Assembly: GCA_029863125.1 (NCBI GenBank)
Contig: JAOTWB010000025.1
Coordinates: 1 to 33,855 of the forward strand
Direction of reading: 5' to 3'
Origin: Gammaproteobacteria bacterium
GTDB taxonomy: Bacteria > Pseudomonadota > Gammaproteobacteria > Steroidobacterales > Woeseiaceae
DNA length: 33,855 bases
Below the pieces are notes generated by a model. That model was given only the letters and a program-made list of their open reading frames with translations. It was not told the origin of the DNA and did not search any database. The first letter of the stretch is position 1. Each line of letters opens with the position of its first letter. This document shows, in pieces, positions 5,739-27,063 of the stretch. Position numbers and translations under genes: made by a program.

Positions 5739-7094
5739 CTGTTTTTGCGAGTCGTCGTACATTTTTGTCAGGAATGATCGGATCGCCGGCTCGGCTTCCT
5801 CTTTGCTCATGAGTTTTTGCTTTTCGAGGATTGCCGCCATGTCCCGAATCGATCGCTTGCCGTCGATCAGCGACATGATGAACGAATAAACCTGGGTCGT
5901 CATGGCCTGGGTTCTGAACGACGGTGACAGCGGAACGGGTTCCTTGGCGGTCACTATCCAGTCCGGCAACGCCTTGTGGCGTTCCGGTTTTCTTAGGTCA
6001 CGCTCTTTGTAGGCGGAGAATGAGAATATTTTTTCCTGTCTGCCGTGACGGCTGGCCGGTGAGCACATGTAGGGAATCGTGTTTTGCGAGACGTAAGGAT
6101 CCGAGAAACCGTTTTCGGCAATGATCGCTTTGGTCTCTTCCGGACTGTATCGGCGCGAACGCTCCGGACTCGCAAATGCGAGCGAGCCGAAATTTACCCA
6201 TCGGCCGTTGTCGGCGAGCAGATTGTTTATACGTGCCGCAAGCACACGCAAATCATCGCTGATAATATCAATTAGCCATGGCGTCACGACAGTATCGAAC
6301 GATCGTTCCGCAAACGGTGCGCGCAGCGCGTCGCCGAGAACCAGGTGGAATCGCTTATCGACGGCTTTCGGGGCCGTTAACGTACGCAGCACCGCGTCGT
6401 CCTCGAGCGCCAATGGCGCTATAGGAAATTCGTACAGTTTCAGTTTGTCACCGCGCATAACCGCCTGTGCGACGAGCATAAGCAGGGGATTGAAATCCAT
6501 CGCGACTGTGAACGCACAGTCGATGTTCATGTGAATGTCATACGCGAGTCGCCCCGCACCGGCACCGAGCACCAGTACATTTCCGAGACTGGCATGATCA
6601 TGCAGCACCGACCGAATTTGTTTCAGAGACGCGCTGTTTTCGTCGTCGCCCCAGGCCCAGTCACGATGAATGTTGGCGTAGTAGGTGTTTAGTCCCTGGT
6701 CAGGCGGCAGCCGTGTTCTGAGCGCAAGATAAGTTTCGTAGTTGCCGTGCAGCGACTGCACGTCAAGGGGCCGCAGCAGTTTGCCCAGGGCGCGGTGGTG
6801 GTGTTGGACGGCTTTCTTGTAACGTTCAACGCGGCGTCGCGTGAGCGAATGCAGGTCCTTGTTTTTGAGCTCAATATCCAGGCCGGCGATCTCGTGGCTA
6901 AGTTTCTGCAACGCAAACTGCATCCGTCCGCGCCATTCGCCCAGCGCCGCCTGTGGTTCTGCAAACATCCAGGGAATCCCGTTAACAGCCGGGAAATCGA
7001 CTTTGCACGCTTTGCAGTAGAGGTTGCTGTCTTTGTGCGCGAGGGGCGACTTGTCGCAGCGTGGGCAGGCGAGAAGGTCGGTGATGTCGGTCAT
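5727..7094 (-). CDS. N2227-type SAM-dependent methyltransferase with zinc ribbon
   Basis: A 455-residue protein in three parts. Residues 7-45 form a Trm112-like zinc ribbon (Cys10, Cys13, Cys27, Cys30). Residues about 115-365 form a Rossmann methyltransferase with the SAM loop LVLGAGAGRLAYD (174-186) and PWLIDI and GRWVNFGSL segments, closest in pattern to the N2227 family that includes eukaryotic carnosine N-methyltransferase. Residues about 385-445 (SLIDGKRSIRDMAAIL) form a small helical domain resembling PqqD/RRE-type modules, which is a tentative match. The ATG at 7094 is chosen because the ribbon begins directly after it; the frame stays open upstream but crosses a terminator. The substrate is unknown. 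Confidence 0.82.
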   Translation of the reverse strand: MTDITDLLACPRCDKSPLAHKDSNLYCKACKVDFPAVNGIPWMFAEPQAALGEWRGRMQFALQKLSHEIAGLDIELKNKDLHSLTRRRVERYKKAVQHHHRALGKLLRPLDVQSLHGNYETYLALRTRLPPDQGLNTYYANIHRDWAWGDDENSASLKQIRSVLHDHASLGNVLVLGAGAGRLAYDIHMNIDCAFTVAMDFNPLLMLVAQAVMRGDKLKLYEFPIAPLALEDDAVLRTLTAPKAVDKRFHLVLGDALRAPFAERSFDTVVTPWLIDIISDDLRVLAARINNLLADNGRWVNFGSLAFASPERSRRYSPEETKAIIAENGFSDPYVSQNTIPYMCSPASRHGRQEKIFSFSAYKERDLRKPERHKALPDWIVTAKEPVPLSPSFRTQAMTTQVYSFIMSLIDGKRSIRDMAAILEKQKLMSKEEAEPAIRSFLTKMYDDSQKQSGF

Positions 7095-7110
7095 GGCGGG
7101 ATTATGCACG

Positions 7111-7149
7111 AAATAAAAACGGCCAGCCGAAAGGAAGGTGGCCGGCCGT
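7111..7149 (-). terminator. Strong intrinsic terminator after the DUF1501 gene
   Basis: On the minus strand a 10-bp stem (arms 7149-7140 and 7128-7119, one G-U pair) with an 11-base loop is followed directly by TTTTTATTT. It ends the three-gene cytochrome/DUF1501 operon 67 bases past the stop codon and lies just before the methyltransferase start. Confidence 0.85.
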
Positions 7150-7215
7150 GTTCTTGCTGCGCTGCTCGGCAGCGCCATAGCCGCAGCAATACCGGATGGA
7201 CTTCCCTGTTGTTGG

Positions 7216-8832
7216 CTACGCGGGCACTGTTCCCGTGACGATGTTCTGGAACGCGATGTACCGGTCGATGTTGGCGCCCAGGCCGTGGCTGATGCCAAGG
7301 CTTTGATAAAGGCCGTCGAAGTTTCCTTCTTCGCCGTGTAGCGCCATGTAGTTCAGTATTACCGAGTTGACCAGCAGGTTGACGTTATTCGCCATCGGCG
7401 TCGCGGCGCGCTGTACCGAGCCGCCTGCATCCATATAGCCGATTTGCTGGTGCTGCATCTGTTCCTCTAACGTGCCGCCGCGCAGCACCGGCCGTCCACC
7501 GAGCCGGGGCGGGTTGTATACGAGGAAGAAAGAGCCCGCCGTCGACGAGTTGTCGCTGGTCCATTCGCCCTTGCCGCGGCCGTCCGTAGAATTGTCGATT
7601 GCACCGTTCGAGGAGAGCGAGCCATCGCTGAAGACGTACAGCATGACGGGTTTGTCGAGAAGTGCCGCATACTCGAGGCAGGCGCCCATGCACTGGCCGG
7701 CACGGAAGTCTTTGACCTCGCCCTCGGCGCGCGCGCCGCCGTGATAGTCGTAGCCGCCCATTTCGATGCAGCCGGCACCGGCAAAGCCGTTCATCACGAG
7801 CTTCATGATCGAAGCCGTCTTCTGGAATTCACGTCCGTCGCGGTCTCCGGCAAAAAACTCGGCCGAGCTGAAGATACCGGTGGCATCGTCCACGATCATT
7901 GCATCTGCGCCCGGGTCGATTGGGGTGCCACCGAAGCGGTCGGCGATATGCGCCGCCTTGAGGTAGCTGCAGCGCACGGCCCTGTCGATGTCGACGTCCC
8001 GGTTCACGAGGTTTTCGACCTCTGCAACCTTGCTGTCCGAAAGGCGATAAATCGACTCCATGACCATCGTCGCATCGTCTTTCGACAGGATGCCGACGAG
8101 GTCGCCCGTGTCAACCAGGTTGACGACGTCACTCGGACGGTCAACCTTGGTCGGGCGCAGCTCGGGATCATACAGCGCCTGTGGCAGCATCGAGTTGCCG
8201 CCCGAATCCGTATTTTCCGAGCCCGAGAGCGTCAGGATCGAGCCCTTGGCGCCCGCAAGAGCAATGCCATACATCGGGTTGTGAGGGTTATTGCCCGTAT
8301 CGTTATCCGAGCGTGCCGGTATCACGGCGCCGTTGATGTTGGCAGCGGTCGTCGGGCTGACTCTCGACAGGATGCCGCGGCGAAACGCGCTGTCAAAGTG
8401 GAAACCCAGGCCCAGGTCGAAGTTCGCGAAGGCATTGCCGTTAGCGTCGCTGAGTCCCGGAACCATGTCGCCCGGCAGTCCCATCTTCTCGTACCCCTGC
8501 GTGCTCAGGAAATCGCTCTGGCCGCCTTGACCGCCGACAAGGACATTCGAGCCGGCGATATTGGCGCCGCCCGCCAGGTCGAAGCAGATAAACGGGATCT
8601 TCCCTGCGCCGTCCGTAATGTTGCATTCAGCGGGGGAGCGCAGGGCGTCGAGGTCCGGCGAAAGAGCGGCATTTGCATTTCGCGGGTTCAGCAGCGGAGC
8701 GATTCCGCCCACCGTATAAGCCGCACCCGTCATAAATCCCTGCGACAAAAATTGGCGTCGCGTGACAGGACGCGGATGATCGGCGTGAAGCAGCGGCAAA
8801 TCCCAGTTGCCTTTATTTCGTTTCGTGCTCAT
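7216..8832 (-). CDS. Tat-exported DUF1501 protein
   Basis: A 538-residue periplasmic protein of unknown function. A twin-arginine signal, TRRQFL at 24-29 followed by a hydrophobic stretch to about residue 48, indicates export in a folded state. The segments GGYDYHGG and VMLYVFSDGSLSSNGAIDN correspond to conserved parts of DUF1501, a distant relative of the alkaline phosphatase/sulfatase fold, although I cannot identify an intact sulfatase active site. AGGAAG precedes the ATG. It is the last gene of an operon with two CxxCH proteins. In Planctomycetes and Verrucomicrobia DUF1501 genes pair with haem-binding PSCyt proteins, so the pairing here suggests a shared role on an unknown substrate. Gammaproteobacterial members are sometimes mislabelled GspF. 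Confidence 0.85.
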   Translation of the reverse strand: MSTKRNKGNWDLPLLHADHPRPVTRRQFLSQGFMTGAAYTVGGIAPLLNPRNANAALSPDLDALRSPAECNITDGAGKIPFICFDLAGGANIAGSNVLVGGQGGQSDFLSTQGYEKMGLPGDMVPGLSDANGNAFANFDLGLGFHFDSAFRRGILSRVSPTTAANINGAVIPARSDNDTGNNPHNPMYGIALAGAKGSILTLSGSENTDSGGNSMLPQALYDPELRPTKVDRPSDVVNLVDTGDLVGILSKDDATMVMESIYRLSDSKVAEVENLVNRDVDIDRAVRCSYLKAAHIADRFGGTPIDPGADAMIVDDATGIFSSAEFFAGDRDGREFQKTASIMKLVMNGFAGAGCIEMGGYDYHGGARAEGEVKDFRAGQCMGACLEYAALLDKPVMLYVFSDGSLSSNGAIDNSTDGRGKGEWTSDNSSTAGSFFLVYNPPRLGGRPVLRGGTLEEQMQHQQIGYMDAGGSVQRAATPMANNVNLLVNSVILNYMALHGEEGNFDGLYQSLGISHGLGANIDRYIAFQNIVTGTVPA

Positions 8833-8860
8833 CTCTGTTGCTTCCTTTAATGTCCTGTCT

Positions 8861-11476
8861 TTACTGAATCAGTGTAACTGCGCTGCCGAGTACCGAAGCG
8901 CAAACACCTTTGGCGATTGCGCGCGTGTCACTCGTACCTCCCAGCAAGCGATCGATAAGATTGTCTGGACGATTGCCGCCGCCCGAGATAAACGCGGCGA
9001 TCTCATCGTGAACGATCGTATAGCTGGGCTGCGAGTCCAGCTGTGGGCTCGTCGATGAGTGTCCGACTGCGCGCGCAATCAACGGCTCAACAAAGCTGTC
9101 GCGATTGGTTACGCTGAATGCCTGGCCAGGTGCCGCACCGAAGTTGAATCCGGGCCAGATCGTTGCGTCTTCGACGGCCGCATCGCAGTACTGGATCGCG
9201 AGCTGGGCGATGGCAACCTGGTGCGATGACAAGACGGCTTCGATATTCTCGACGGCCGGCAACGACTGACGCAGCTCCTGGTAGGTTTCATCCACCAGGA
9301 AGTTGCCGCCGCGCTGGTAGGTCGTGCGATCGATACCCGTGATCGCGGCATAGGTCGCATCAATCTCGTCGAAGGTCTTGACGCCGATGTCCGAACTGCG
9401 CTCTTCAGCTGTTGCGATATAGTCAGTCACAACAAGCATCGGGTCTTCGGTGCGATTGAAGGTCACGCCGCCGAGGTTGTCGAACGTCAGGAAGAACTCG
9501 TCGTCCTCCGGCCCTTTCTCGAGCGGCAGCACGGCACCAAGCACGGAGAGCGGCTGACCGAGTTCGTCCAGCGCCGCCGGATTCGAAAGGTCGAGCGATT
9601 CATTGAGGTTCGCGTAACTCTGTCCGACCGGCGCTTCCTGGCCGTTCATCGCTACGCGCATGCCCTGCATGGTAATGCCGGACGGCGTCGTGCCGTCAAG
9701 CGTCGTGAAATGCGGCTTGTCGAACAGGTAGGCGTATGAGTCGAATTGCTGCGCTTCAAACAGGACGTAAGACGTTTGCACCGGGGCGCCGATACGCTCG
9801 GAGATATCGAACAGCAGGTAAAAGCGTTCACCGACACCCGCATCGAAGTTCTGATTGATCTGTTCTTCGCTGAGCGCGCGGCGGTGAATCGCGGCGAGCC
9901 GGAATGTGCCTTCCCACAGACCGTCGCCGGAGGCCTCATTGCCGAGCACCAGGGCGAACGTGTCCTGCCAGTCCACGAACGTACCTCCGGGAACCGGATC
10001 GGCATTGCTGGCAAGCACGCCGTTAACGTAAATTCTGCGTCCGTCAACCGGGTTGTACGTTGCGACGACGTGTTGCAATGTAGCCTGCAGTACTTCGTCG
10101 GCGTCCGGTGTGGATAGCTGCGGATTTCCGTTCAGGTCGGTCAGCGGGTCACCGTTGGCGTCCTGTGCATTCGTGCGCAACAGGAAGTCATAGTTGTAAA
10201 GCGTCTGCTGCAGCGTGAAGTTGCGAGACGTCTGGCCGGCCGAGTAGCTGACGATCTTCGACATGTCCTGAGTCACATTTGCCGGTACGACCCAGGCTTC
10301 GATCGAAAACTCGCCTGATTCCTGCAGTATGTCGGCGAGTTTCTTGCTGGCCGTCGTCGAGCCCTGTGCTTTGCCGGGACCCTGCGCCTGGTTGTAACCG
10401 ATTGTGATGCCCCAGCCGCCGTACCAGGTGACGTCACCCGACAGGTTCAGATCGATGGCCGGGTCGACGCCGCTCGTATCAAAGGCCGTCAAGCCCGTGC
10501 CGGTCTTGAATTCCCACAGAGCAATCTGTGCGTCTTCATAGCGATTGCCGCCGGACGCGAGCGTGCCGTCAACGAGGCGCACGGCCTTGCTGTGGACAAG
10601 ATCCGGATTGACCGTTGTTGGATCGATCGCATTCGCGAAGGCTGTGATTGCGTTCAGCATTTCGACGGAAGCCGTCGCACAGTCGTTGTTCCAGCAGTTG
10701 TGTGATTCACCGCCTTGAGAGCCCGGTGATACCTTGATGACAAAGCGAGAATCGGCGGGGGTGTCCAGGTTGATCCTTGACTTGGCCGCTTCGTACGCGC
10801 TCGCTACATCAAGCTCTGCGAAGTACGGTTGCTGTGCTGTCGGGGATTCCGAACTGTGGCAACCGTCGCAATACTCCGCGAGAATCGGCGTGTAGACGAA
10901 CTGCTCGAACAGCGCCGGGTCCGTCGGGAAGTTCTTGCTGTCGCTGGGATTACGATCCGGCGGAGCAGTCAGGACAATCTGCCGTCCGCCGCCCGCTGCT
11001 GCGCCAACCCAATTCTCGATCCAGGTGGTCATGATCGTGCCGCAAACGCCCGGGTCCGCGACCCAGCAGTTGTGGCCAATAGGCGGTTCACTGACTTTTT
11101 CCACAATGCGCGACAACGATGGCTGCTGCACATTGGTCACGGTAACGGCCTCGTCGTAGGCCATGTTGATGTCATCATTGCGGACGAACATCGGCACCTG
11201 GCCAACCGATTCGTTATGGCACGAGCCGCAGCGGTCCGTCGTCTTTACGTTGATCCAGAATTCCTGTTGAAACTTGAGGACGTCGGCATCACGAGCGACG
11301 GGGCCCGTATACACCGCGTTGTTATTGTTACCAGGACCCTGCGACACGGGGTTTTCGGTCGTTTGCGCGCCGCCGCCGCAGGCGGCGAGAACGATGCTCG
11401 CAAGCGCGGCAACTGCGCCGCTTTTCAGTGCGCGCGTAACCACAGGCCAGTCAGCAATTCCAATTGCTTTATTCAT
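8861..11476 (-). CDS. Di-CxxCH LamG-domain lipoprotein
   Basis: An 871-residue lipoprotein (lipobox LAAC, Cys33) predicted to sit in the envelope. Two c-type haem sites are visible: RCGSCH (83-87) and YCDGCH (203-207). Each begins a similar module ending in HNCW (135-138 and 259-262) with another cysteine soon after (145 and 266), so the N-terminal third looks like a tandem duplication. Residues about 300-540 form a LamG/concanavalin-like sandwich (FSIEAWV, LQHVVATY, GRRIYVNG, RLAAIHRRALS), usually a carbohydrate- or surface-binding fold. The remaining 330 residues are unrecognised. I prefer the ATG at 11476 over 11482 because GGGAG lies 9 bases before it. It is the middle gene of the operon, 13 bases after the previous stop. 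Confidence 0.85.
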   Translation of the reverse strand: MNKAIGIADWPVVTRALKSGAVAALASIVLAACGGGAQTTENPVSQGPGNNNNAVYTGPVARDADVLKFQQEFWINVKTTDRCGSCHNESVGQVPMFVRNDDINMAYDEAVTVTNVQQPSLSRIVEKVSEPPIGHNCWVADPGVCGTIMTTWIENWVGAAAGGGRQIVLTAPPDRNPSDSKNFPTDPALFEQFVYTPILAEYCDGCHSSESPTAQQPYFAELDVASAYEAAKSRINLDTPADSRFVIKVSPGSQGGESHNCWNNDCATASVEMLNAITAFANAIDPTTVNPDLVHSKAVRLVDGTLASGGNRYEDAQIALWEFKTGTGLTAFDTSGVDPAIDLNLSGDVTWYGGWGITIGYNQAQGPGKAQGSTTASKKLADILQESGEFSIEAWVVPANVTQDMSKIVSYSAGQTSRNFTLQQTLYNYDFLLRTNAQDANGDPLTDLNGNPQLSTPDADEVLQATLQHVVATYNPVDGRRIYVNGVLASNADPVPGGTFVDWQDTFALVLGNEASGDGLWEGTFRLAAIHRRALSEEQINQNFDAGVGERFYLLFDISERIGAPVQTSYVLFEAQQFDSYAYLFDKPHFTTLDGTTPSGITMQGMRVAMNGQEAPVGQSYANLNESLDLSNPAALDELGQPLSVLGAVLPLEKGPEDDEFFLTFDNLGGVTFNRTEDPMLVVTDYIATAEERSSDIGVKTFDEIDATYAAITGIDRTTYQRGGNFLVDETYQELRQSLPAVENIEAVLSSHQVAIAQLAIQYCDAAVEDATIWPGFNFGAAPGQAFSVTNRDSFVEPLIARAVGHSSTSPQLDSQPSYTIVHDEIAAFISGGGNRPDNLIDRLLGGTSDTRAIAKGVCASVLGSAVTLIQ

Positions 11477-11489
11477 TGTCATAATCTCC

Positions 11490-12686
11490 CTACTGGCCCA
11501 TGCAGTATTCGGCGGTATCCGCGAACACCTGTTTCATCCTGAAGCCGTTGGCCGCAAAACTTGAATTGATCTGGTCGACCCTACTGTGGTCGCTGACCGT
11601 CTCGGGATCGCGCAGGCACACTGCCTTGAATACTTTCTTCACCTGGCAGGCCGCGAACGCGTCACTGTTGGCAAGCTCCACGCCGAGTGACTTGGCGCCG
11701 AAGTCATCCCCGGTACCCGGGCCGTTGAAGCCAAGGTAACGGTTCTGGCCGTTGCGCCAGTAGTTCGTCCAGTGATCGTCCGGCGTGCGGAATCCCTGCG
11801 GGAAGTTCAGGTCGTTATTGAAATACTTGGGCTGGACATTGCCAGCGGTGTACTCGATCGTGCCCGTGGCGTCGTTGTAGTTGTAGTAAGCAAACGCCTG
11901 CGCCATCGGGTCCATGCCCGTGTGGCAGCCGACGCAGTTGTTCAGGAACAGGCGGCTGTCGCCACCGGGGCTCCGGCTCACATCCTGACGGATGCGATCC
12001 GGGGACAGGCGCGGATCATGCAACTGTTCCATGTCCGTACAAAAGTGATTGACCATCGTAAAACGGAACATTGCGCGGTTGGTGCCGGCGATGAAAAATG
12101 CTTCGGACGCCGCGCGCGACGTCATCACACCGGCCGTTGCCGTGGAGGGGATACCGTTTATGCCTGACTGTGTCGTTGGCTCGAGCACGGCTTTAAGGTC
12201 GTGATTCCCTGCTTCCAGCTGCTCGTAGTGATTGTTGTTGTTACCAGCCGGCGCAGAAGAAACGGTCCCGGCGCGCCCGACGTACTGCAGGTCGGCCGAC
12301 AGCACGGTGCGGAAGTCCACGTCGTCGCGGATCATGCCGATTACGGTCGCGATGTAATCATTGAGCGGAACGAACACAGAGCGGTCGCGATTCGTCCAGG
12401 GTGCGGCGAAATTTTTCAGCGTCACGTTGTAAAAGCTGCTGTTTTCCATTGCAATGTACGCTGCGCAGGCGGCCCCGGAAACGGCATTGCTGACGCAGAC
12501 GGGGTCCGTTCCGGTGTTGTTTTCCATTGCGTCCAAGACCGTTTCGGTCGGCGGTACACCGGCGAGACGATCATAAATACGCTTGGCCTGTTCCCTGGTC
12601 TGGGCACCTGCCGGCGCCGCGAGCATTACTGACAGCAATACTGTAAGCGCGATCCATGTGTGTAGGTTCCACATCCTGTTATTCAT
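11490..12686 (-). CDS. Exported CxxCH protein, DUF1588/planctomycete-cytochrome-like
   Basis: A 398-residue secreted protein with signal peptide (residues 8-28, cleavage near AGA-QT). One haem c site, CVGCH, lies at 251-255, followed by TGMDP. The order of elements, SRAASEAFFIAGTNRAMFRFTMVNHFC then CxxCH then MDPMAQAFAYY, parallels DUF1588-type proteins in which an RxxPxxRG-like region precedes a CxxCH and DP; this is a pattern judgement, not a search. Further paired cysteines at 64/74 may form a disulfide. First gene of the minus-strand operon, downstream of the long divergent intergenic region. The frame opens at a GTG (12704), but the ATG at 12686 gives a cleaner signal peptide. Confidence 0.75.
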   Translation of the reverse strand: MNNRMWNLHTWIALTVLLSVMLAAPAGAQTREQAKRIYDRLAGVPPTETVLDAMENNTGTDPVCVSNAVSGAACAAYIAMENSSFYNVTLKNFAAPWTNRDRSVFVPLNDYIATVIGMIRDDVDFRTVLSADLQYVGRAGTVSSAPAGNNNNHYEQLEAGNHDLKAVLEPTTQSGINGIPSTATAGVMTSRAASEAFFIAGTNRAMFRFTMVNHFCTDMEQLHDPRLSPDRIRQDVSRSPGGDSRLFLNNCVGCHTGMDPMAQAFAYYNYNDATGTIEYTAGNVQPKYFNNDLNFPQGFRTPDDHWTNYWRNGQNRYLGFNGPGTGDDFGAKSLGVELANSDAFAACQVKKVFKAVCLRDPETVSDHSRVDQINSSFAANGFRMKQVFADTAEYCMGQ

Positions 12687-12884
12687 ATCGTTTCTGCTCG
12701 TCACTCGTACGATTCAAACATTGTGCTTACTTGTGTACCCGAACGTCTCCGGGAATCACGCACCCTGAGCCACGAATTAGTCAGGACTGATTTGCTGCGT
12801 CGCGTGACGCGCGCCAAATCTCTTGCTCCTTGTAGCTCCACATTTACGCGGTGGACTCCTGTCCGCCAGATCGGTTGCTCAACT

Positions 12885-12904
12885 TGGCAAGAAAAATCTT
12901 GCCA
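12885..12904. promoter_or_regulatory. Perfect 8-4-8 inverted repeat, operator candidate
   Basis: TGGCAAGA and TCTTGCCA flank AAAA. The symmetric dyad is 199 bases upstream of the minus-strand operon's start. It could be a dimeric regulator site. A terminator is less likely because no U tract follows directly on either strand. Confidence 0.5.
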
Positions 12905-13157
12905 GACCTTTTCAGTCTTCGCCGTGCGTGCATTCACGAATTCACGTATCACGGTTCGGTTTTCAATCGATCTTTAATCTATAAAGCAAGTGCTGTGCCA
13001 GTCTCGATTGGGGCGCGGACAATCTTCAAAAAATATATGTGAATCAGTTACTTATTCTTATGTGCTCGGAACGTGCCAAGGCAGAGATATGTCAAGTCAT
13101 TGTCGGTGCTTCGGCACAAGGTTTATGACCCGGATGTCTAAGCTACTGATTGACAAA

Positions 13158-13172
13158 GACAGTGCAACTGTC
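13158..13172. promoter_or_regulatory. Perfect 6-3-6 inverted repeat
   Basis: GACAGT-GCA-ACTGTC, about 245 bases upstream of the right-hand -10 box. A related GACAG half-site follows within 30 bases. Possible regulator site. Confidence 0.35.
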
Positions 13173-13259
13173 GCGGAAGGGAGACAGGTCGGTAACGAAT
13201 TGACACGCCCAAACAACAAATGGAAGCGACATAAAGTTCATGGGGTTTCTTAACGTGGC

Positions 13260-13280
13260 ACAAAAATCACACTTTTTTGT
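13260..13280. promoter_or_regulatory. A/T inverted repeat
   Basis: ACAAAAA and TTTTTGT flank a short spacer beginning TCACAC. Could be a hairpin ending in a T-rich arm or an A-tract bend; no assigned role. Confidence 0.25.
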
Positions 13281-13344
13281 CGCGCAGTTAATCGTCGTTA
13301 TGGAACCGAATCCCGCGTCGCAGCATGTACTGGCAGGGGCGATG

Positions 13345-13358
13345 CGGAATGAATTCCG
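13345..13358. promoter_or_regulatory. Perfect 6-2-6 inverted repeat near promoter
   Basis: CGGAAT-GA-ATTCCG ends 33 bases before the -35 candidate of the right-hand operon, at a distance suited to an activator. Confidence 0.4.
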
Positions 13359-13391
13359 TTTGATTTTGTTCAATGTCGTGCTTTTGAGACA

Positions 13392-13421
13392 TTACAAAGA
13401 GCTTGAGGCCTCTCCTATAAT
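13392..13421 (+). promoter_or_regulatory. Sigma70-type promoter of the HzsA-like/barrel operon
   Basis: A perfect -10 box TATAAT (13416-13421) with a poor -35 match TTACAA (13392-13397) at 18-base spacing. CTCTC and GAGAG arms flank the -10 box symmetrically, hinting at an operator over the promoter. The predicted leader is about 120 bases. Confidence 0.55.
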
Positions 13422-13549
13422 CGAGAGCAACACGCGCCGAATATTTCGGGGCAACGTTCGATAAACGGTTAATTGCGGTTTGTGACTGCGTTAACGGTAC
13501 GGCCAGTGCATCGCGTCGTACGCTGGCATGATGACCCAAGGTGAAAGCT

Positions 13550-16324
13550 ATGTTTAGGCTGGCACGACAATCCGGAGAAGGAACTACGAGCAAAGTGACC
13601 AGGACGGTCGCGTTGTCAATGGCATGTCTGGTGGTCGCCGCCTGCAGCAGGGGAGACGGCGTACAAATAGGCACCGGACAGGATCCGGATCCTGTGGTTA
13701 TCGATTTCCCGATTGCCTACATAAAGTCGCCGCTTCCGGTCGATGACAACGGCACATTCCAGCAGCAGGATCTGCGAGAGCAGATCACGTTCGAATTCGG
13801 CGCCGACCTCTATTTTCGAGATCGCGCATCGCCCAGCGCCGAAGCGATCAATATTACCGAAAGCGTATCGCAGGGCCTCGCGGCCATTCGCGACGTTGAA
13901 ATCGACTATGACGGCAGCCGCGTGCTGTTCGCCATGCGCGTGCCGTTCGACCCGAACCTGGACGAGGAAGATCTGCCGACCTGGAATATATGGCAGTACA
14001 CGTTTGAAACCGGCGAGCTGCTGCGGGTCATAACATCCGATCTCACGGCCGGGATCGGGCATGACATCATGCCGAAGTACCTGCCGGATGGACGGATAAT
14101 CTTTTCCTCGACGCGTCAGACCCAGTCGCAGGCAGTCTTACTCGACGAAGGAAAAGGGGCTTTCCCGGCCCAGGATGAGGACGACAACGAGCCCGCTTTT
14201 AACCTGCATGTCATGAATGACGACGGCACGGGCGTAAAGCAGGTGACTTTCAACCAGAGCCACGACCTCGATCCCTCTGTAATGGCGGATGGCAAAATCG
14301 TCTTCAGCCGCTGGGACCACAACCAGTCGAATAACGCCGTAAACCTGTATCGCATGAATCCAGACGGCTCGGCCCTGGAGTTGCTTTACGGGCAGCAGAG
14401 TCATGCTACGGGAACCAATGGCGACATCATTCAGTTCATGCAGCCGCGCCAGGTTTCAGACGGTCGCGTCATGGTGCTCGCCCGCCCGTTTACGAATACG
14501 GAAGGCGGCGGCGAACTGCTGCTGATCGATACACCTCAGTACCTGGAGAACACGCAGCCGACAAAGGAGAACATCGGTATCCTGACCGGCCCGGCGCAGG
14601 AAGACGCGACCGTCAACGAGGTTTCGACGATACCGGGCGCGCCTTCGGTCGGCGGTCGCTACTTCTCCGTGTACCCCATTCAGGATGGCACGGATCGGCT
14701 GATGGTCAGCTGGAGCCAGTGTCGCCTGGTCGAAATACTGGCTGACGACGGGGATCCCGCGACGGAGGACAGTCAGATCGTTCCTTGCACCGAGGACCGC
14801 CTCGCGAACGTCATCTTGGTTGATCCGAACAATCCGCCAACGCCGGTCGAGGGCGACCTGTTTGTCGCGCCGCCGCTGTACGGCATCTGGATCTACGATC
14901 CGCGTGATGATACGCAGCTGCCCATCGTGCCGGGTGAAGAAGGCTTCATGTTCACCGAAGTGGTTTCAGCCGACCCCCGGCCAATTCCACCAGTCGTTCT
15001 CGACGGCATGAACGACTATCCGCTCGACGTGACGCTTGCTGACAGCGGCGAAGCACTGCTGAACATCCGCAGCGTTTACGATTTTGACGGCGCGGCAATT
15101 GTCGATATCCCGACGGTGGCCGATCCTACGCAGACCCTGGCCGCCGATCGAATTGCCCGTTTCCTGCGCATCGAAAAAGCGGTATCACAGCCGGACGACG
15201 ACCTGCGGGACATTGACAACACCGCATTCGGCGTTACGACCCAGTTTGGAATGAAGGAAATCGTCGGCTATGCGATGGTCGAGCCCGATGGCTCTGTCAT
15301 GGTGAAGGTACCGGCCAACACCGCACTGATGGTCAGCGTGCTCGACGAGAACGGCCACCGCATCACGCAACGGCACCAGAACTGGATGTCGCTTGGCGCC
15401 GGCCAGGAACTGAGATGCAATGGCTGCCACGATGCCAACAGCGGCGTGTCTCACGGCCGTATCGACGCTTTTGAAAGCGCGTACGCGGGCGCGCCGAGCG
15501 GTATCACGGCATTCCCGGGTACCGATGATATGGTCTGGCCCATTGCCACCGTCGGCGAAACGATGGCGGAAGTGCGCGCGCGCATAACCTGCGCAGATGG
15601 TTCCTGTTCCTCGATCGAACCGTCAATGAACGTCATTTACCGTGACGTCTGGACGGCAGACCCGGTGATCGCGGCGAACAATGCCGACATCGATTACCTG
15701 TACACCGCCTTGACGACGGCGTCGCCGACCACCTTGTCCTGTCAGCAGGACTGGCAGTCGAACTGCCGCAGTGTCATCAACTACGAAACGATCATTCACC
15801 CGCTATGGAGCCAGCCGCGCCTGGCCACTTTCGATGATGATAATGATCCCGACACGCCGGAAGTGCCGTTGATCGACCCGGTTTCCGGCCAGCAGGTCAA
15901 CAACAACTGCCTTAACTGTCATACGCCCGTGGATCCCGCAAATGGCGCCGCACGCGTCCCCGCCGGCCAGCTGGAGCTCCAGGATGGCCTGTCGGTTGAT
16001 GAGCCCGATCACTTCCATGCCTATCGCGAGCTGTTAGTTACTGATAACCTTCAGGTTCTGGACAATGGCGTGTTGGTCGATGCGACTGAAGTTGTCGGAC
16101 AGGATGCAGACGGAAACGACATTCTGGCTCCAATCTCGAACGGTCCGCCGCCATTGAGAGCGTTCTTGGGCGCAAGGTTATCGAGCGATTTCTTTGACCG
16201 ATTCAACGATCCATCGGATCTACACTTCAATATATTGTCCCAAGCGGAGCGACGCCTTGTTGCGGAATGGTTGGATGTCGGAGCCCAGTATTACAACAAT
16301 CCCTTCGACGCCCCCGCCAACTAA
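13550..16324 (+). CDS. HzsA-related beta-propeller lipoprotein with two CxxCH sites
   Basis: A 924-residue lipoprotein (lipobox VAAC, Cys32). Residues about 60-500 contain WD40/TolB-like (PD40) repeats such as MPKYLPDGRIIFSSTR, DPSVMADGKIVFSRW and QPRQVSDGRVMVLARP, like the middle domain of hydrazine synthase alpha subunit. The C-terminal half carries CNGCH (623-627) and CLNCH (787-791), the layout of 'HzsA-related' proteins. No HzsB/HzsC subunits are nearby, so hydrazine chemistry is not implied. The ATG at 13550 is favoured over GTG 13541 because AAGGTGA precedes it. It is the first gene of the plus-strand operon; its last 50 bases overlap the SH3-barrel gene. Likely role: envelope electron transfer or a redox enzyme. 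Confidence 0.82.
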   Translation: MFRLARQSGEGTTSKVTRTVALSMACLVVAACSRGDGVQIGTGQDPDPVVIDFPIAYIKSPLPVDDNGTFQQQDLREQITFEFGADLYFRDRASPSAEAINITESVSQGLAAIRDVEIDYDGSRVLFAMRVPFDPNLDEEDLPTWNIWQYTFETGELLRVITSDLTAGIGHDIMPKYLPDGRIIFSSTRQTQSQAVLLDEGKGAFPAQDEDDNEPAFNLHVMNDDGTGVKQVTFNQSHDLDPSVMADGKIVFSRWDHNQSNNAVNLYRMNPDGSALELLYGQQSHATGTNGDIIQFMQPRQVSDGRVMVLARPFTNTEGGGELLLIDTPQYLENTQPTKENIGILTGPAQEDATVNEVSTIPGAPSVGGRYFSVYPIQDGTDRLMVSWSQCRLVEILADDGDPATEDSQIVPCTEDRLANVILVDPNNPPTPVEGDLFVAPPLYGIWIYDPRDDTQLPIVPGEEGFMFTEVVSADPRPIPPVVLDGMNDYPLDVTLADSGEALLNIRSVYDFDGAAIVDIPTVADPTQTLAADRIARFLRIEKAVSQPDDDLRDIDNTAFGVTTQFGMKEIVGYAMVEPDGSVMVKVPANTALMVSVLDENGHRITQRHQNWMSLGAGQELRCNGCHDANSGVSHGRIDAFESAYAGAPSGITAFPGTDDMVWPIATVGETMAEVRARITCADGSCSSIEPSMNVIYRDVWTADPVIAANNADIDYLYTALTTASPTTLSCQQDWQSNCRSVINYETIIHPLWSQPRLATFDDDNDPDTPEVPLIDPVSGQQVNNNCLNCHTPVDPANGAARVPAGQLELQDGLSVDEPDHFHAYRELLVTDNLQVLDNGVLVDATEVVGQDADGNDILAPISNGPPPLRAFLGARLSSDFFDRFNDPSDLHFNILSQAERRLVAEWLDVGAQYYNNPFDAPAN

Positions 16325-17069
16325 ATCCGCCTGGTTCGGATGCCTGGTTGCCGTCGTACTGCAGATTTTTCTGACAGCGCCGGTCCAGGCCGCCGATGAC
16401 TATCGCTCCGTTGCCGTTGCCGACCCCTACCTGGAATTGCGCACCGGACCCGGCAGCGGCTACCCGATTTTCCATGTTGTCGACCGCGGTGAGTCAGTCG
16501 ATGTCCTGATGCAGCGCACGGACTGGTACCTGGTTCGGGCTGCAAACGGCAAAGAGGGCTGGGTCGATCGCGCTCAAATGGAGCTGACGCTGCAGCCGGA
16601 CGGCGACAGGGTCAGTTTCGAGCAGGCCGACATCGATGACTTCACGAACGCCAAGTGGGAGACCGGAATTCTGGCCGGTGACTTTGGCGGTGCGAACATC
16701 ATTTCGCTGTACGGCGGGTACTCGCTCAACCCCTATGTGTCGCTGGAGGCATGGGGTTCACAGATTTTGGGTAATTTCTCGAATGGCTGGATGGGCAGTG
16801 TTAATGTCGTTCACGAAGCGTGGCCGGATTGGCGCGTATCGCCATTCTTCACGCTGGGCGCCGGCATCATCCGCACCGAGCCGAAATCGACGATCATCCA
16901 GGGTGAGGATCGCACCGATCAGATTGGGCACGTTGGCGCGGGATTCCGTATATATGCATCGCGGCGCTTTTTGTTGCGAGCCGAGTACAAGAGCTACGTG
17001 GTGTTCACGAGCCGGGACGAAAATGAGGAAGTAGAGGAATGGAAGGTCGGTTTCGCGTTCTTTTTCTGA
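16275..17069 (+). CDS. SH3-domain outer-membrane beta-barrel protein
   Basis: A 264-residue exported protein: signal peptide to about residue 39 (VQA-AD), a bacterial SH3b domain at about 46-103 (LELRTGPGSGYPIFHVVDRGESVDVL, WYLVRAANGKEGWV), then alternating amphipathic strands ending in FAFFF, an outer-membrane barrel signature. About eight strands fit the length. SH3b domains commonly contact peptidoglycan, so the protein could tie the barrel to the cell wall (inference). The only good start in frame, ATG 16275, lies inside the preceding gene. The 3' end overlaps the next barrel gene by 31 bases, suggesting translational coupling. Confidence 0.8.
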   Translation: MSEPSITTIPSTPPPTKSAWFGCLVAVVLQIFLTAPVQAADDYRSVAVADPYLELRTGPGSGYPIFHVVDRGESVDVLMQRTDWYLVRAANGKEGWVDRAQMELTLQPDGDRVSFEQADIDDFTNAKWETGILAGDFGGANIISLYGGYSLNPYVSLEAWGSQILGNFSNGWMGSVNVVHEAWPDWRVSPFFTLGAGIIRTEPKSTIIQGEDRTDQIGHVGAGFRIYASRRFLLRAEYKSYVVFTSRDENEEVEEWKVGFAFFF

Positions 17070-17719
17070 TCATTGCCATGATCAGCCTGTCGGGCTGTGC
17101 GGCGACGAAGAACCTGTTCGGCTTCGGCGACGAAGAGGCGCCGCCTCCCACGTCGGAAGCGCCAGGGCAGGTCATCGATCCCGAAGTTGAGCGTCGCGAA
17201 ATCAAGGAACCGGCAATCGATCGAGAGGATTTCGAGATCGGTGGCTATGTCGGCATCATGAGCGTCGAAGATTTTGGTACCGATGTCGTCTACGGTGTGC
17301 GGCTGGCCTACCACATCACGGCCGGCTTCTTTGTTGAAGGCACGGTCGGGCAGACCGAGGCGGGGCTGACAAGCTTCGAAGAACTGTCAGGTGGCGCCCG
17401 GCTCATAACGGACAGCCAGCGGACCTTTACGTACTACAACCTGAATCTGGGCTATAACATCCTGCCCGGCGAAGTTTTTATCGGCGAAGGGCGCGCTTAT
17501 AACACCAACCTGTACTTGATTGCGGGGCTGGGCTCCACGCGATTTGCCGGCGATGACCGGTTCACGGTCAACGTTGGCGCCGGCTATCGATTCTTGCTAA
17601 CAGACTCGATTGCGCTGCACCTCGATTTCCGCGATCACCTGTTCGATATCGATCTCCTTGGTGAGGAGAAGACGGCCCATAATCTCGAGGCTCACCTTGG
17701 TTTCACGGTGTTCTTCTGA
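17039..17719 (+). CDS. Outer-membrane beta-barrel lipoprotein
   Basis: A 226-residue protein with a lipobox (LSGC, Cys near 21), a charged, Pro-rich linker to about residue 60, and a barrel of about eight strands ending in GFTVFF. The barrel pattern resembles that of the preceding SH3-barrel protein, so the two may be paralogous. A lipid anchor plus a barrel is unusual. The two genes overlap out of phase and are surely co-transcribed. A short CGGTTT-C-AAACCG dyad followed by GTTTT lies just after the stop and could be a weak attenuator before the DUF4266 gene. Function unknown. Confidence 0.78.
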   Translation: MEGRFRVLFLIIAMISLSGCAATKNLFGFGDEEAPPPTSEAPGQVIDPEVERREIKEPAIDREDFEIGGYVGIMSVEDFGTDVVYGVRLAYHITAGFFVEGTVGQTEAGLTSFEELSGGARLITDSQRTFTYYNLNLGYNILPGEVFIGEGRAYNTNLYLIAGLGSTRFAGDDRFTVNVGAGYRFLLTDSIALHLDFRDHLFDIDLLGEEKTAHNLEAHLGFTVFF

Positions 17720-17766
17720 GGCAGGGATCACGGTTTCAAACCGGTTTTCCGGGATAAAGTGGCATT

Positions 17767-18009
17767 ATGCAAAAGTATTGTTTAGCGATTGGTCGAATTT
17801 TTCTGCCGCTGCTCGTCATCGGCGGATTGTCCGGATGCGGTAATGTCGAGCCCTGGGTAAAGCCCTACGAGCGTGACAGGCTTGCGGATCCGATTATGGC
17901 GCTCGATGGTGACCCCGTTTCAACCGCTTATTTGCAGCACGTTTACGAAGCCCGCGAAGGCGCTCGCGGCGGGGAAGGCGCGGTCGGCGGTGGCTGCGGC
18001 TGCAATTAG
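17767..18009 (+). CDS. DUF4266 mini-lipoprotein ending in GGGCGCN
   Basis: An 80-residue protein. The lipobox LSGC gives a mature lipoprotein of roughly 57 residues. The conserved DUF4266 core PWVKPYERDRLADPIM is followed by a His-containing helix and a Gly-rich tail GGGCGCN with two cysteines. From general knowledge DUF4266 genes often sit beside DUF3570 genes, and often near ApbE-type flavin transferases or thioredoxin-like genes; neither of the latter is visible in this window. The tail could bind metal or be modified, which is inference. The DUF3570 start follows 15 bases later. The Shine-Dalgarno is weak. Confidence 0.88.
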   Translation: MQKYCLAIGRIFLPLLVIGGLSGCGNVEPWVKPYERDRLADPIMALDGDPVSTAYLQHVYEAREGARGGEGAVGGGCGCN

Positions 18010-18024
18010 CGGTATCGAGTGGCG

Positions 18025-19167
18025 ATGATGTGCCGACGCGGAGTCTTGATTGCAGCCATGGTGATGGCTTTTGGCACCGCCCATGCAGGCGTGTTGCCGG
18101 AAGACCGCGCCGACATTCTTTATCACCTTTACGATGGTGGCGGTGTCGAGATCGACGGCCCGTCTATCCTGGTCCGCAAGCAGGTCGGAAAGAGCCTATC
18201 CTTCGTTGGCAACTACTACGTCGACATGGTGACTTCGGCGTCAATTGACGTCATTACGACAGCGAGTCCCTATACCGAAGAACGCAAGCAGTGGTCGATG
18301 GGTATGGATTACCTGCGGGGTAATACGACCATGCGCGTCGGCTATACGAGCAGCGAAGAGTCCGACTACGATGCGTCGACCTATAATTTCTCGGTGAGTC
18401 AGGACATGTTCGGTGCTCTGACAACGCTGACGCTGAGCTATGCGCTCGGGGACGATATTGTCCGGAAGTCCGGAGACGATGCGTTCGAAAAAGATCTGGA
18501 CAAGCAAATTTACGGCGTTGGTTTGACACAGATCCTGACAAAAAACCTGATAGCGACGCTGAATTTCGAAACCATGACTGACGAGGGCTATTTAAATAAC
18601 CCGTATCGGACGGTTCGTTATTTTGATGCGAGCGATTTGCTTGGGCGCGGCTATAGTTATGAAGAGGAACTGTACCCGAATACGCGCACCAGCAATGCTC
18701 TGGGGATGAGGGCGCGATACTTCCTGCCGTATCGTGCGGCCATTGAAGGCGAATACCGGTACTTCACCGATACCTGGGACATTGAAAGTCATACAGCCTC
18801 GCTAACCTATATTCACCCGTGGAGAGATTTCACGTTTACGGGCAAGTTTCGCTATCACGATCAGACGGGCGCGCATTTTTACAGCGATCTCTTCCCCAGG
18901 TCACAGGCAACCAATTTCCGTGGTCGTGACAAAGAGCTGAGCCCGCTGACCAGCTATACGTTCAAACTGAAAGCGGCCTACGAATTCCTCAATGAAAACG
19001 AGGGCTGGGGCTTTCTGAAGAAAGGCTCGGTCACGGCATCGATCGACATGCTGCATGTCGACTTTCATGACTTCTCGGACTTGACGGCGCTCGCGCCGAT
19101 CGGCGAAGAACCGCTCTATAAACTCGACGCCGACGTCTACCAGATCTTCTTTTCTTTCTGGTATTAG
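18025..19167 (+). CDS. DUF3570 outer-membrane barrel protein
   Basis: A 380-residue protein with signal peptide (cleavage near AHA-GV, about residue 21), the DUF3570 opening DRADILYHLYDGGGVEIDGPS, and then a long series of amphipathic strands ending in FFSFWY, typical of a 14- to 16-strand outer-membrane barrel. The open frame begins at GTG 18019, but ATG 18025 has a better-placed purine-rich upstream stretch. It follows the DUF4266 gene directly, the known pairing. With the upstream lipoproteins it would supply the transmembrane conduit or assembly platform of the locus (inference). Function of the family is not established. Confidence 0.88.
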   Translation: MMCRRGVLIAAMVMAFGTAHAGVLPEDRADILYHLYDGGGVEIDGPSILVRKQVGKSLSFVGNYYVDMVTSASIDVITTASPYTEERKQWSMGMDYLRGNTTMRVGYTSSEESDYDASTYNFSVSQDMFGALTTLTLSYALGDDIVRKSGDDAFEKDLDKQIYGVGLTQILTKNLIATLNFETMTDEGYLNNPYRTVRYFDASDLLGRGYSYEEELYPNTRTSNALGMRARYFLPYRAAIEGEYRYFTDTWDIESHTASLTYIHPWRDFTFTGKFRYHDQTGAHFYSDLFPRSQATNFRGRDKELSPLTSYTFKLKAAYEFLNENEGWGFLKKGSVTASIDMLHVDFHDFSDLTALAPIGEEPLYKLDADVYQIFFSFWY

Positions 19168-19255
19168 TTTTTTCGCGCGGTACGCTGCGATCGCGGCGAT
19201 GAACCGGTCCTGCAGATGATAGGATGTGCTCCGGGCAAACCGGAGGCTGGCACCT

Positions 19256-19825
19256 ATGACATCGATTATTGTTGTGGTACTCATCCTGATTGGCCTGATT
19301 GGCCTGGTTGGCGTTGTCCTTTATAACCGCCTCATTCGCAGTCGCAACCGGGTCGATACGGCCTGGAGCGATATCGACGTGCAGCTGCAGCGACGGCACG
19401 ACCTCATTCCGAGACTGGTGGCGGCGGTCGACCAGTACGCCAAGTATGAGCGTGCAACGCTCGAGGCGGTCACCGAGCTGCGAGCCGAGGCCATGCAGAT
19501 GGCGGACGTGAGCGCGAAAGGCAGGGCCGAGGAGAAGCTCAGTGCGGGCATTGAGCGGATCATCGCGATTGCCGAGAACTACCCGGATCTCAAGGCCAAC
19601 GAGAATTTCCTCAGCCTGCAAAACGAGCTCGTGGAAACCGAGAACTACCTGCAGTTTGCGCGCCGCTATTACAATGGGTCGGTTCGTGACTACAACACGA
19701 TGACCGAGATCGTGCCGAGCAACATCATCGCCGGCTGGTTCAACTTTTCGATGCGGGAATTTTTCCAGAAGAAATCTGACGATGCGGCAAACGTGCCACT
19801 GGTCAGGATTGGTTCGGTTGAATGA
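19256..19825 (+). CDS. LemA family protein
   Basis: A 189-residue membrane-anchored protein: one N-terminal transmembrane segment (residues 3-24) and a helical-bundle domain with the LemA pattern [41 protein letters not shown] and [15 protein letters not shown]. The start is ATG 19256, with GGAGG 9 bases upstream. The stop overlaps the DUF2207 start as ATGA. LemA-DUF2207 pairs are common, and the two products probably act together at the membrane, but the process is not defined. The transmembrane segment is partly encoded by a 9-base tandem repeat. A Ser/Thr-phosphatase role has not been shown. Confidence 0.93.
19286..19312 (+). repeat. Three 9-base tandem copies inside lemA
   Basis: Copies CTGATTGGC, CTGATTGGC and CTGGTTGGC encode LIG-LIG-LVG in the LemA membrane segment. 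Copy-number change would lengthen or shorten the anchor without a frameshift. Confidence 0.6.

Positions 19826-26986: not shown

Positions 26987-27063
<77 letters not shown>

Follow-up and report, generated by a model that had tools for sequence, protein, structure and literature searches.

The stretch of DNA analysed here (the window, 33,855 nt) carries, at positions 7216..19167, eight genes arranged as two divergent operons, with three genes on the minus strand to the left and five on the plus strand to the right. In the coordinates given below, each open reading frame (ORF) begins at the first start codon after a stop.

7216..8832, minus strand: DUF1501-like protein, 538 aa, with a twin-arginine motif and no Pfam/NCBIfam match
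8861..11482, minus strand: LamG protein, 873 aa, with a lipobox and two CxxCH motifs
11490..12704, minus strand: PSD2-like protein with one CxxCH, 404 aa, weakly akin to planctomycete PSCyt3/PSD2 (DUF1588/DUF1585)
13541..16324, plus strand: HzsA-like lipoprotein, 927 aa, with an HZS_alpha middle domain and two CxxCH motifs
16194..17069, plus strand: SH3 domain with a small outer-membrane barrel (OMP_myx_plus-like)
17039..17719, plus strand: OMP_myx_plus outer-membrane barrel (OMPm) with a lipobox
17767..18009, plus strand: DUF4266 small lipoprotein, ending in GGGCGCN
18019..19167, plus strand: DUF3570 outer-membrane barrel with two tandem ApbE-type motifs that lack the glycine

Judged by eye, the HzsA-like protein probably starts at the ATG at 13550 and the SH3 protein probably starts inside its ORF. 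The original prediction, made from this DNA alone, described eight genes in two divergent operons, and all eight ORFs are present where it placed them. Its count of five CxxCH motifs in three products is likewise confirmed (LamG protein two, PSD2-like protein one, HzsA-like protein two), the motif being absent from the other 25 of the 28 non-overlapping window ORFs of at least 100 aa. Export signals are found as predicted, with lipoboxes in the LamG, HzsA-like, OMPm and DUF4266 proteins, the twin-arginine (RR) motif in the DUF1501-like protein and aromatic C-termini on all three barrels; the remaining Sec signals were judged by eye. Matches to OMP_myx_plus, OMP barrel, DUF3570 and DUF4266 models support the three barrels and the mini-lipoprotein.

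The identification of the first left-operon protein as DUF1501 did not hold, and the label describes a fold-level resemblance at best. Not one of ten family members matches any Pfam family, PF07394 (DUF1501) included, at E values up to 1; an hhalign comparison of the family with eight DUF1501 proteins is not significant, and the predicted fold gives a weak match to the alkaline-phosphatase superfamily. DUF1552 (PF07586) was rejected as an alternative family, being carried by just 1 of 80 genomes. The LamG protein matches Laminin_G_3 (3.7e-18) and has its CxxCH motifs at residues 85 and 205, an HNCW motif following each repeat; C35, H137, H261 and both CxxCH are invariant in 10/10 aligned rows. 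The PSD2-like protein matches PSD2 at 0.00039 (20.5 bits, under the cut-off of 25.8) and, at E up to 1, 9 of 10 aligned family members match PSD2 (best 1.7e-05) and 8 of 10 match PSCyt3. The CxxCH motifs are kept in 125/125 near-full ORFs of relatives for the LamG protein, 141/141 ORFs for the PSD2-like protein and 155/158 near-full ORFs for the HzsA-like protein, in counts drawn from overlapping named and unnamed sets, so that some genomes are counted twice.

The HzsA-like protein, which has beta-propeller-type repeats, matches HZS_alpha (1.9e-15) and PD40, and aligns with the structure 5c2v_A at 3.7e-08 (7.1e-18 with a profile). Its lipobox Cys35, its second CxxCH (790-794, outside the printed 5c2v alignment) and His895 are invariant in 13 rows. 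The first CxxCH is matched to the haem alpha-I motif of the structure, and His895 pairs with chain position 745 (772 after an offset of 27) in a weak segment of 7.5 bits, or 13.6 bits with the profile. The NCBIfam equivalog model for hydrazine synthase alpha, however, scores 64.1 bits against a cut-off of 800, and no tyrosine occurs within eight residues past the first CxxCH in any of the 13 rows, which have S, T, Q, A or R at His+4. The active-site tyrosine (Tyr591, a haem alpha-I ligand) is thus missing, a judgement made from the rows and the published numbering, as the alignment to 5c2v stops at His+3.

Of the right-operon products, the SH3 protein matches SH3_3 (1.6e-11), an OMP barrel model weakly and TIGR04565 below its cut-off (8.1e-08), and ends in FAFFF. 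The OMP_myx_plus barrel scores 163.9 bits with TIGR04565 (2.9e-48, cut-off 60) and also matches OMP_b-brl. The DUF4266 lipoprotein matches PF14086 (6.3e-23), and its CxC end is found in 149/151 loci. The DUF3570 protein matches its Pfam family at 2.6e-37 (129.1 bits, cut-off 25) and its predicted model is an outer-membrane barrel of about 16 strands; a fold comparison returned no porin-cytochrome barrel among the 50 matches listed, which is uninformative either way.

Earlier work has placed the DUF4266/DUF3570 pair in an ApbE flavinylation system, a relationship that the original prediction overlooked, and has shown a Chlorobium DUF3570 to be flavinylated at two [S/T]GA[S/T] sites (PMC8238504). 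The window protein carries the motif D-x-x-[ST]-x-A-[ST] twice in tandem, with acceptor-type serines Ser75 and Ser83. The motif aspartates are kept in 130/131 and 131/131 distinct relatives at sites 1 and 2 respectively, as are the acceptor S/T residues (130/131 and 131/131). The sites read TSAS and TTAS, neither of which is [S/T]GA[S/T]; because the glycine is absent from both, flavinylation is not assured. By alignment column the glycine is present in 13/131 relatives at site 1 and 9/131 at site 2, and by pattern any [ST]GA[ST] occurs there in 18/131. The argument that loss of the glycine means loss of flavinylation is nevertheless weakened, since the glycine motif is missing from 22 of the 31 distinct sequences whose fetched locus includes ApbE. 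Residues 74-83 fall below pLDDT 50, and both sites lie in the loop that the model predicts with least confidence. Elsewhere the window's genome holds a canonical ApbE/DUF3570-type copy (L001; L numbers are our handles for loci) and a CcmF gene.

The divergent operons share a gap of 836 bp, in which the following candidate sites lie.

12924..12937, no strand assigned: palindrome-like GTGCGTGCATTCAC, candidate regulator site (conserved alignment block, by eye)
12986..13000, minus strand: sigma54-type -24/-12 promoter TGGCACAGCACTTGC, into the left operon (motif scan)
13169..13186, no strand assigned: TGTC-N10-GACA palindrome, candidate activator site 1
13374..13391, no strand assigned: TGTC-N10-GACA palindrome, candidate activator site 2
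13392..13421, plus strand: sigma70-like promoter TTACAA-N18-TATAAT, right operon (by eye)

The consensus of the first site among close relatives is GTGAATGCATTCAC. The sigma54-type site is the sole exact match in the window (0.14 expected) and is exact in 56/59 close-relative loci (0.15 expected), and a gene with a sigma54 DNA-binding domain was found in 20/20 genomes. Outside the close relatives it occurs in 2/58 loci (L073 and L140), both with genus-like sequence, and is a trait of the close relatives rather than of the whole system. The TGTC-N10-GACA palindrome has two matches in the window (0.47 expected); at least one is present in 57/59 close-relative loci, which hold 104 sites against 1.05 expected. 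An Rfam search of the gap returned nothing up to E 5, and the conserved blocks are therefore read as DNA sites. An ORF at 12990-13253, clustered in 10 loci, is most likely a by-product of DNA conservation in the gap.

The nearest named relatives of the window are Woeseiaceae; in surveys of marine sediment, the Woeseiales account for 1-22% of the 16S sequences (PMC7082342). Among 40 loci of relatives, 26 carry the full set of eight genes arranged as in the window, contig ends truncate 11 and 3 lack the left operon (L068-L070). Among cultured bacteria, Steroidobacter gossypii S1-65 (L151) has the eight genes and a thioredoxin, and the DUF1501-like gene is found in Aliiglaciecola lipolytica and Alteromonas sp. 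M12. The neighbourhood search that the original prediction proposed thus finds the eight genes together across genomes, so that the outcome it named as counting against it, that the two operons never co-occur, clearly fails. In a wider sample of 369 Gammaproteobacteria, 51 genomes (about one in seven) have a strong HzsA-like match, and 64 have a match at E up to 0.001. DUF3570 is present in 50 of these 51 genomes and the DUF1501-like gene in 44, being not found in 7. At their 52 HzsA loci, DUF3570 lies on the same strand within 12 kb (midpoints) in 46, and the DUF1501-like gene within 12 kb in 34 (opposite strand in 33, same strand in 1). The left operon was not seen in the fetched stretch of L258-L266, and it is dispensable to the system; three loci of one family (L270, L271 and L273) have the barrel module, a conserved secreted protein (CC) and TPR genes but no HzsA-like gene. 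The conserved order in relatives, together with the site counts in the gap, shows that the locus is more than a chance assembly.

The eight genes are one half of a system that extends to TPR proteins and a motor of the ExbB/ExbD/TonB type; the original prediction saw no more than this half. In other families the locus runs on into a thioredoxin, ApbE and CC, and is further joined to three TPR proteins, ExbB, two ExbD and a TonB-like protein. In the window's genus the motor-bearing half lies at a second locus, through to ExbB/ExbD/ExbD/TonB-like, and the mapped loci have no thioredoxin beside DUF4266. The second locus of the window's genome (G000:C34) has the ApbE-thioredoxin-CC order of the linked loci, and its ApbE scores 483 with an HMM of the HzsA-locus ApbEs; the genome's two other ApbEs score 193 and 119. 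Judged by HMM score, the second-locus ApbE is orthologous to those of the HzsA loci. CC is present at 149 bits or more in 50/51 HzsA genomes, and in 12 genomes without a strong HzsA match. At L301 the motor genes match MotA_ExbB (5.8e-30) and ExbD (1.6e-16 and 1.9e-15), and the same order of ExbB and two ExbD is repeated at L303-L306, L308-L310, L315-L322, L324 and L326-L329. The TonB-like protein scores 63.7 bits with the AgmX/PglI C-terminal domain NF033768 (cut-off 40) and 33.5 bits of the 650 for the GltG equivalog. All three TPR proteins have TPR domains, and the GltE model gives 38.6 bits (cut-off 225); their tentative assignment as GltC, D and E follows gene order and size.

We propose that the products of the eight genes make up that half of a conserved, proton-driven envelope machine which sits in the outer membrane and at the cell surface, a tentative reading to which we give somewhat less than an even chance; its gene content and linkage are observed, and from them we infer its redox scheme. 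This content suggests a machine that uses haem, flavin and thiol proteins to deal with electrons or polymers at the cell surface. In the manner of AglRQS-Glt, the ExbB/ExbD/TonB-like motor and the TPR proteins would transmit proton-motive force as far as the outer membrane, where the DUF3570 barrel and the two small OMP_myx_plus-type barrels would form an assembly. ApbE would attach FMN at Ser75 and Ser83 of DUF3570, and thioredoxin would cycle the CxC tail of the DUF4266 lipoprotein so that thiol electrons reach the flavins. The flavins may then give electrons to, or take them from, the surface CxxCH lipoproteins, the HzsA-like and LamG proteins, which would bind an extracellular substrate, probably a polymer, and reduce or oxidise it. 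This surface chemistry would be completed by the PSD2-like and DUF1501-like proteins, and outward electron flow is the direction we favour.

The original interpretation is partly upheld. An envelope redox role is backed, as far as sequence can back it, by linkage to ApbE and thioredoxin, by the CxC tail of DUF4266 and by the conserved CxxCH motifs; oxidation of a nitrogenous substrate and the DUF1501 family label are not. The most specific form of our proposal is a Glt-type outer-membrane redox machine, driven by proton-motive force, in which a barrel with two covalent FMN groups, in the DUF3570 loop between strands 3 and 4 and on a glycine-free ApbE motif, passes electrons from periplasmic thiols to surface haem lipoproteins. 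In this detail it is unlikely; if it is true, the porin-cytochrome conduit has a flavin-based counterpart, an outer-membrane barrel can be flavinylated and ApbE accepts a motif without glycine. Against the wider proposal stand the replaced glycines and the low-confidence loop around both sites, the dispensable left operon, the loci with the barrel module but no HzsA-like gene, the genomes with CC but no strong HzsA match and the mapped genus loci that have no thioredoxin beside DUF4266. The mtrABC genes reported in other Woeseiaceae (PMC12175321) also count against it, as a second conduit would be partly redundant.

A surface transport machine of the Glt/Nfs kind, moving polymer or protein cargo, is the strongest alternative to this redox machine, though on balance it is somewhat unlikely. 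The redox proteins would be cargo or folding helpers, the thioredoxin and CxC tail would serve disulfide handling and the CxxCH proteins would simply be displayed. The motor, TPR and TonB-like composition fits the Agl-Glt core complex, whose myxobacterial versions are described as moving polymer of the slime or the spore coat (PMC3858216). The LamG domain may bind polysaccharide, and the LamG and PSD2-like proteins have more invariant cysteines outside CxxCH. A pure transporter, however, would need neither the orthologous ApbE that travels with the system nor the two acceptor-type serines, almost or fully invariant, and most loci with the module retain the CxxCH proteins.

Decidedly unlikely is an oxidoreductive system that acts on polysaccharides, possibly sulfated ones, with the help of an energised outer-membrane module; it would be the gammaproteobacterial equivalent of the PSCyt/PSD, LamG, DUF1501 or DUF1552 genes of planctomycetes and verrucomicrobia. 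DUF1501 and DUF1552 are partners of the PSCyt-PSD genes in those groups. The weak PSD2/PSCyt3 matches, the Laminin_G_3 match and the weak alkaline-phosphatase/sulfatase-type fold of the DUF1501-like protein all point this way, and PSCyt genes sometimes carry carbohydrate-binding modules including Laminin_G_3 (PMC5615132), but the PSD2/PSCyt3 matches lie under their cut-offs and no glycoside hydrolase was noticed among the genes of the loci. A hydrazine-synthase-like enzyme oxidising a nitrogen compound is scarcely credible and is ruled out as a leading reading by the equivalog score and the missing tyrosine, for all that the HZS_alpha domain, the aligned first CxxCH and the invariant His895 at the His772 position, in its weak segment, speak for it; next to the HzsA-like gene no HzsB or HzsC gene was noticed. 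That two adjacent operons of unrelated function share an intergenic region by accident is very improbable: some genomes (L272, L274, L276-L279) have the left operon at a distance from the right, but the divergent arrangement is kept in 33/52 HzsA loci of a class-wide sample and the HzsA-like and DUF1501-like genes co-occur by genome at 7e-43 (hypergeometric, relatedness ignored).

The proton-driven redox machine can be set beside several known systems. With hydrazine synthase alpha (PMC12758564) it shares an HZS_alpha domain, propeller-type repeats and two CxxCH, and differs in lacking Tyr591; the abstract of that survey names homologues in Planctomycetota and Desulfobacterota, and its main text mentions neither gammaproteobacteria nor Pseudomonadota. 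The terms 'hydrazine' and 'DUF' are absent from the main texts of two Woeseiales papers (PMC12175321, PMC7451513). Like the PSCyt-PSD genes (PMC5615132), the window encodes PSCyt3/PSD2-like, LamG and DUF1501-like proteins together, but as separate proteins with below-cut-off matches and a link to an outer-membrane machine.

The clusters of DUF3570, DUF4266, ApbE and thioredoxin reported in 2021, with uncertain function (PMC8238504), have the four families adjacent, as in many relatives here; the window DUF3570 is shorter, has both glycines replaced and belongs to a set that also includes HzsA-like, barrel and motor genes. The main text of that paper does not use 'barrel' and mentions 'outer membrane' once, on siderophore transporters; a 2024 paper includes the outer membrane among the locations of flavinylated domains (PMC11334425), with no occurrence of DUF3570 or barrel.

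The Agl-Glt core complex comprises gltC, D, E, G, aglR, Q, S and one additional gene (PMC3169522, PMC3858216), and was reported in gammaproteobacteria in 2011 with no function given (PMC3169522). The likeness, judged by gene composition, lies in a single cluster of ExbB, two ExbD, an AgmX/PglI-type TonB-like protein, three TPR proteins and a further small gene, with OMP_myx_plus-type barrels in the linked operon. Neither 'ApbE' nor 'cytochrome' occurs in PMC3169522 or PMC3858216; what sets the present complex apart is its linkage to ApbE, thioredoxins and DUF4266, to a DUF3570 barrel and to CxxCH proteins. The analysis ties the core complex and the DUF3570/DUF4266/ApbE/thioredoxin set, with an HzsA-like family and a DUF1501-like module, into one system of ~20 genes, and the cargo of the core complex, the role of DUF3570 and the role of HzsA-like proteins outside anammox merge into one genetic test. 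If the most specific form of our proposal is true, this orphan gammaproteobacterial core gains a function. MtrCAB-type porin-cytochrome conduits have an outer-membrane barrel beside CxxCH lipoproteins, as does the window; the window locus differs in having no multihaem cytochrome, and we propose a flavin barrel in place of the haem plug.

All eight reading frames of the divergent locus were recovered where the original prediction had placed them, and the five CxxCH motifs it had counted are confined, among the window's 28 non-overlapping reading frames of at least 100 amino acids, to the LamG, PSD2-like and HzsA-like proteins. Pfam matches across the eight products comprise HZS_alpha, Laminin_G_3, OMP_b-brl, DUF4266 and DUF3570; an OMP_myx_plus match was also obtained in an NCBIfam search, and the SH3 protein gave an SH3 domain match together with a weak outer-membrane barrel match. 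Motif scans located a lipobox in the LamG, HzsA-like, OMPm (OMP_myx_plus) and DUF4266 proteins, and terminal aromatic residues in all three predicted barrels; the DUF1501-like protein has a twin-arginine motif. The protein labelled DUF1501 matched no Pfam or NCBIfam model, and at E up to 1 no Pfam family was returned for it or for any of nine relatives. Public databases annotate this protein as 'general secretion pathway protein GspF' (P0018, P0028, P0038, P0092, P0096), apparently in error. The window's only Rfam match at the gathering threshold is:

26990-27063, - strand, tRNA gene (Rfam RF00005)

The host genome (G000) is a 74% complete draft, its 73 contigs totalling 2.49 Mb. Judged by the HzsA-like gene, its closest named relatives are MAGs of the Woeseiaceae. 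Among its genes are one for the cytochrome c maturation protein CcmF and one with a sigma54 DNA-binding domain. At another site of this genome (G000:C69, locus L001) there is a canonical thioredoxin-DUF4266-DUF3570-ApbE cluster.

The HzsA-like gene was detected in 46 of 60 relatives, and 40 matching loci were fetched for comparison of gene order. All eight genes are present in 26 of these 40, with order and divergence as in the window, counting two loci (L041, L055) where a contig end cuts the DUF1501-like gene; contig ends cut short 11 of the other 14, and the left operon is missing from three (L068-L070). Across a class-wide sample of 369 Gammaproteobacteria, searched with three queries at E up to 0.001, the HzsA-like protein matched in 64 genomes, the DUF1501-like protein in 50 and DUF3570 in 95. 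A strong HzsA-like match (a limit of about 350 bits) was present in 51 genomes, 44 of which also hold the DUF1501-like gene and 50 DUF3570. At 46 of 52 HzsA loci DUF3570 lies downstream, on the same strand and no more than 12 kb away (midpoints), and the DUF1501-like gene is within 12 kb at 34 (33 on the opposite strand, one on the same); contig ends account for some of the missing partners. By eye, three loci without the left operon (L260, L261, L264) carry an extra small lipobox protein with CxxxxCH between the HzsA-like and SH3 genes. One family (L270, L271, L273) has the SH3/OMP/thioredoxin/DUF4266/DUF3570/CC/TPR set without the HzsA-like gene, CC being a conserved secreted protein; a CxxxxCH-motif protein, again by eye, lies immediately upstream of this set in L270 and L271.

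The window carries half of a larger system, whose two parts lie apart in its genus and together in other groups, as follows from the joined gene runs of other families and from a second locus within the genus. In most other families a thioredoxin gene lies between the OMP_myx_plus and DUF4266 genes. Further genes are found either after DUF3570 or on the far side of the DUF1501-like gene: ApbE (absent from some fetched stretches), often a second thioredoxin, CC (motif LEEELLFPANTQV) and a TPR protein. A farther run, its order kept in many loci, encodes a TPR protein of ~930 amino acids, a short TPR protein, a small secreted protein, ExbB, two ExbD and a TonB-like protein. Four loci (L319, L320, L324, L329) have the TPR-to-TonB-like run after DUF3570 within a single fetched piece, and in four genomes (G073, from L230 with L324; G138; G405; G391) this motor run and the full divergent locus share one contig. 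Within the window's genus CC and ApbE stand together away from the eight-gene locus, at most 2.5 kb apart on the same contig and strand in 28 of 37 genomes (hand count). The second locus of the host genome (L301) reads ApbE, thioredoxin, CC, three TPR proteins, small protein, ExbB, ExbD, ExbD, TonB-like; its ExbB, ExbD and ApbE are Pfam-confirmed, and its TonB-like protein has an AgmX/PglI C-terminal domain above cut-off. CC is found at 149 bits or more in 50 of the 51 HzsA genomes and in 12 further genomes without a strong HzsA match.

Several neighbouring genes were also noted. A LemA gene and one more gene (window 19226-21522, + strand) follow DUF3570 in many genus loci, and a LemA-like gene (by eye; L301 7206-7796, - strand) adjoins ApbE at the second locus. 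A SAM methyltransferase with a Trm112-like N-terminus and a weak PqqD-like C-terminus (window 5727-7298, - strand; probable start near 7094) clusters in 47 loci and adjoins the DUF1501-like gene in many.

The operons are separated by 836 bp, within which a sigma54-type site reads left. Among 59 close-relative loci, 56 have an exact copy of this site where 0.15 would be expected, and 57 contain TGTC-N10-GACA palindromes (104 sites against 1.05 expected); near-identical loci were dropped from this set only when their last 200 bases were identical. Together these elements suggest an enhancer-binding activator common to both operons in the window's genus, outside which both are mostly absent. A small reading frame at 12990-13253 clusters in 10 loci but overlaps conserved regulatory DNA and is probably no gene.

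The HzsA-like protein matches hydrazine synthase alpha (structure 5c2v) at 3.7e-08 as a single sequence and 7.1e-18 as a profile. In the alignment, the haem alpha-I CxxCH pairs with the first CxxCH of the HzsA-like protein, whose second CxxCH is invariant but falls outside the part printed. All 13 rows keep His895, which a weak segment of the alignment pairs with chain position 745; by the offset of 27 this is His772, a residue that Haegglund et al. 2025 (PMC12758564) report as absent from their clade I homologues. At the Tyr591 position all 13 rows have S, T, Q, A or R, never Tyr, and on the features tested we therefore reject identity as a hydrazine synthase; an ordinary haem role appears likelier.

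We propose that the whole system may be an energised envelope machine acting on an extracellular, probably polymeric, substrate. Its outer-membrane part would assemble as a complex holding thiol centres in thioredoxin and the DUF4266 CxC, a flavin centre on a flavinylated DUF3570 and haem centres in haem-loaded HzsA-like, LamG and PSD2-like proteins, and the machine would draw on the proton-motive force. What the analysis shows is which genes are present, their order and linkage, the conserved motifs and a predicted barrel fold; the cofactors, the complex, the energy source, the substrate and the way electrons move are inferred. A polymer or protein transporter carrying redox cargo is the chief competing explanation. 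An mtrABC set has been reported in other Woeseiaceae (PMC12175321), which a second conduit would in part duplicate.

For the proposed machine there are partial precedents. Luciano et al. 2011 (PMC3169522) describe a core complex, of unknown function, whose genes gltC, D, E, G, aglR, Q, S and one more form clusters in several gammaproteobacteria and in Geobacter; a table there gives Myxococcus GltC, GltD and GltE as 673, 1191 and 471 amino acids. The words ApbE and cytochrome occur neither in that paper nor in PMC3858216, and among the papers listed in our literature searches none was seen to join these parts. In its gene set, which matches, the motor and TPR portion is similar to the Agl-Glt core, and the DUF3570/ApbE part resembles a described flavinylation system.
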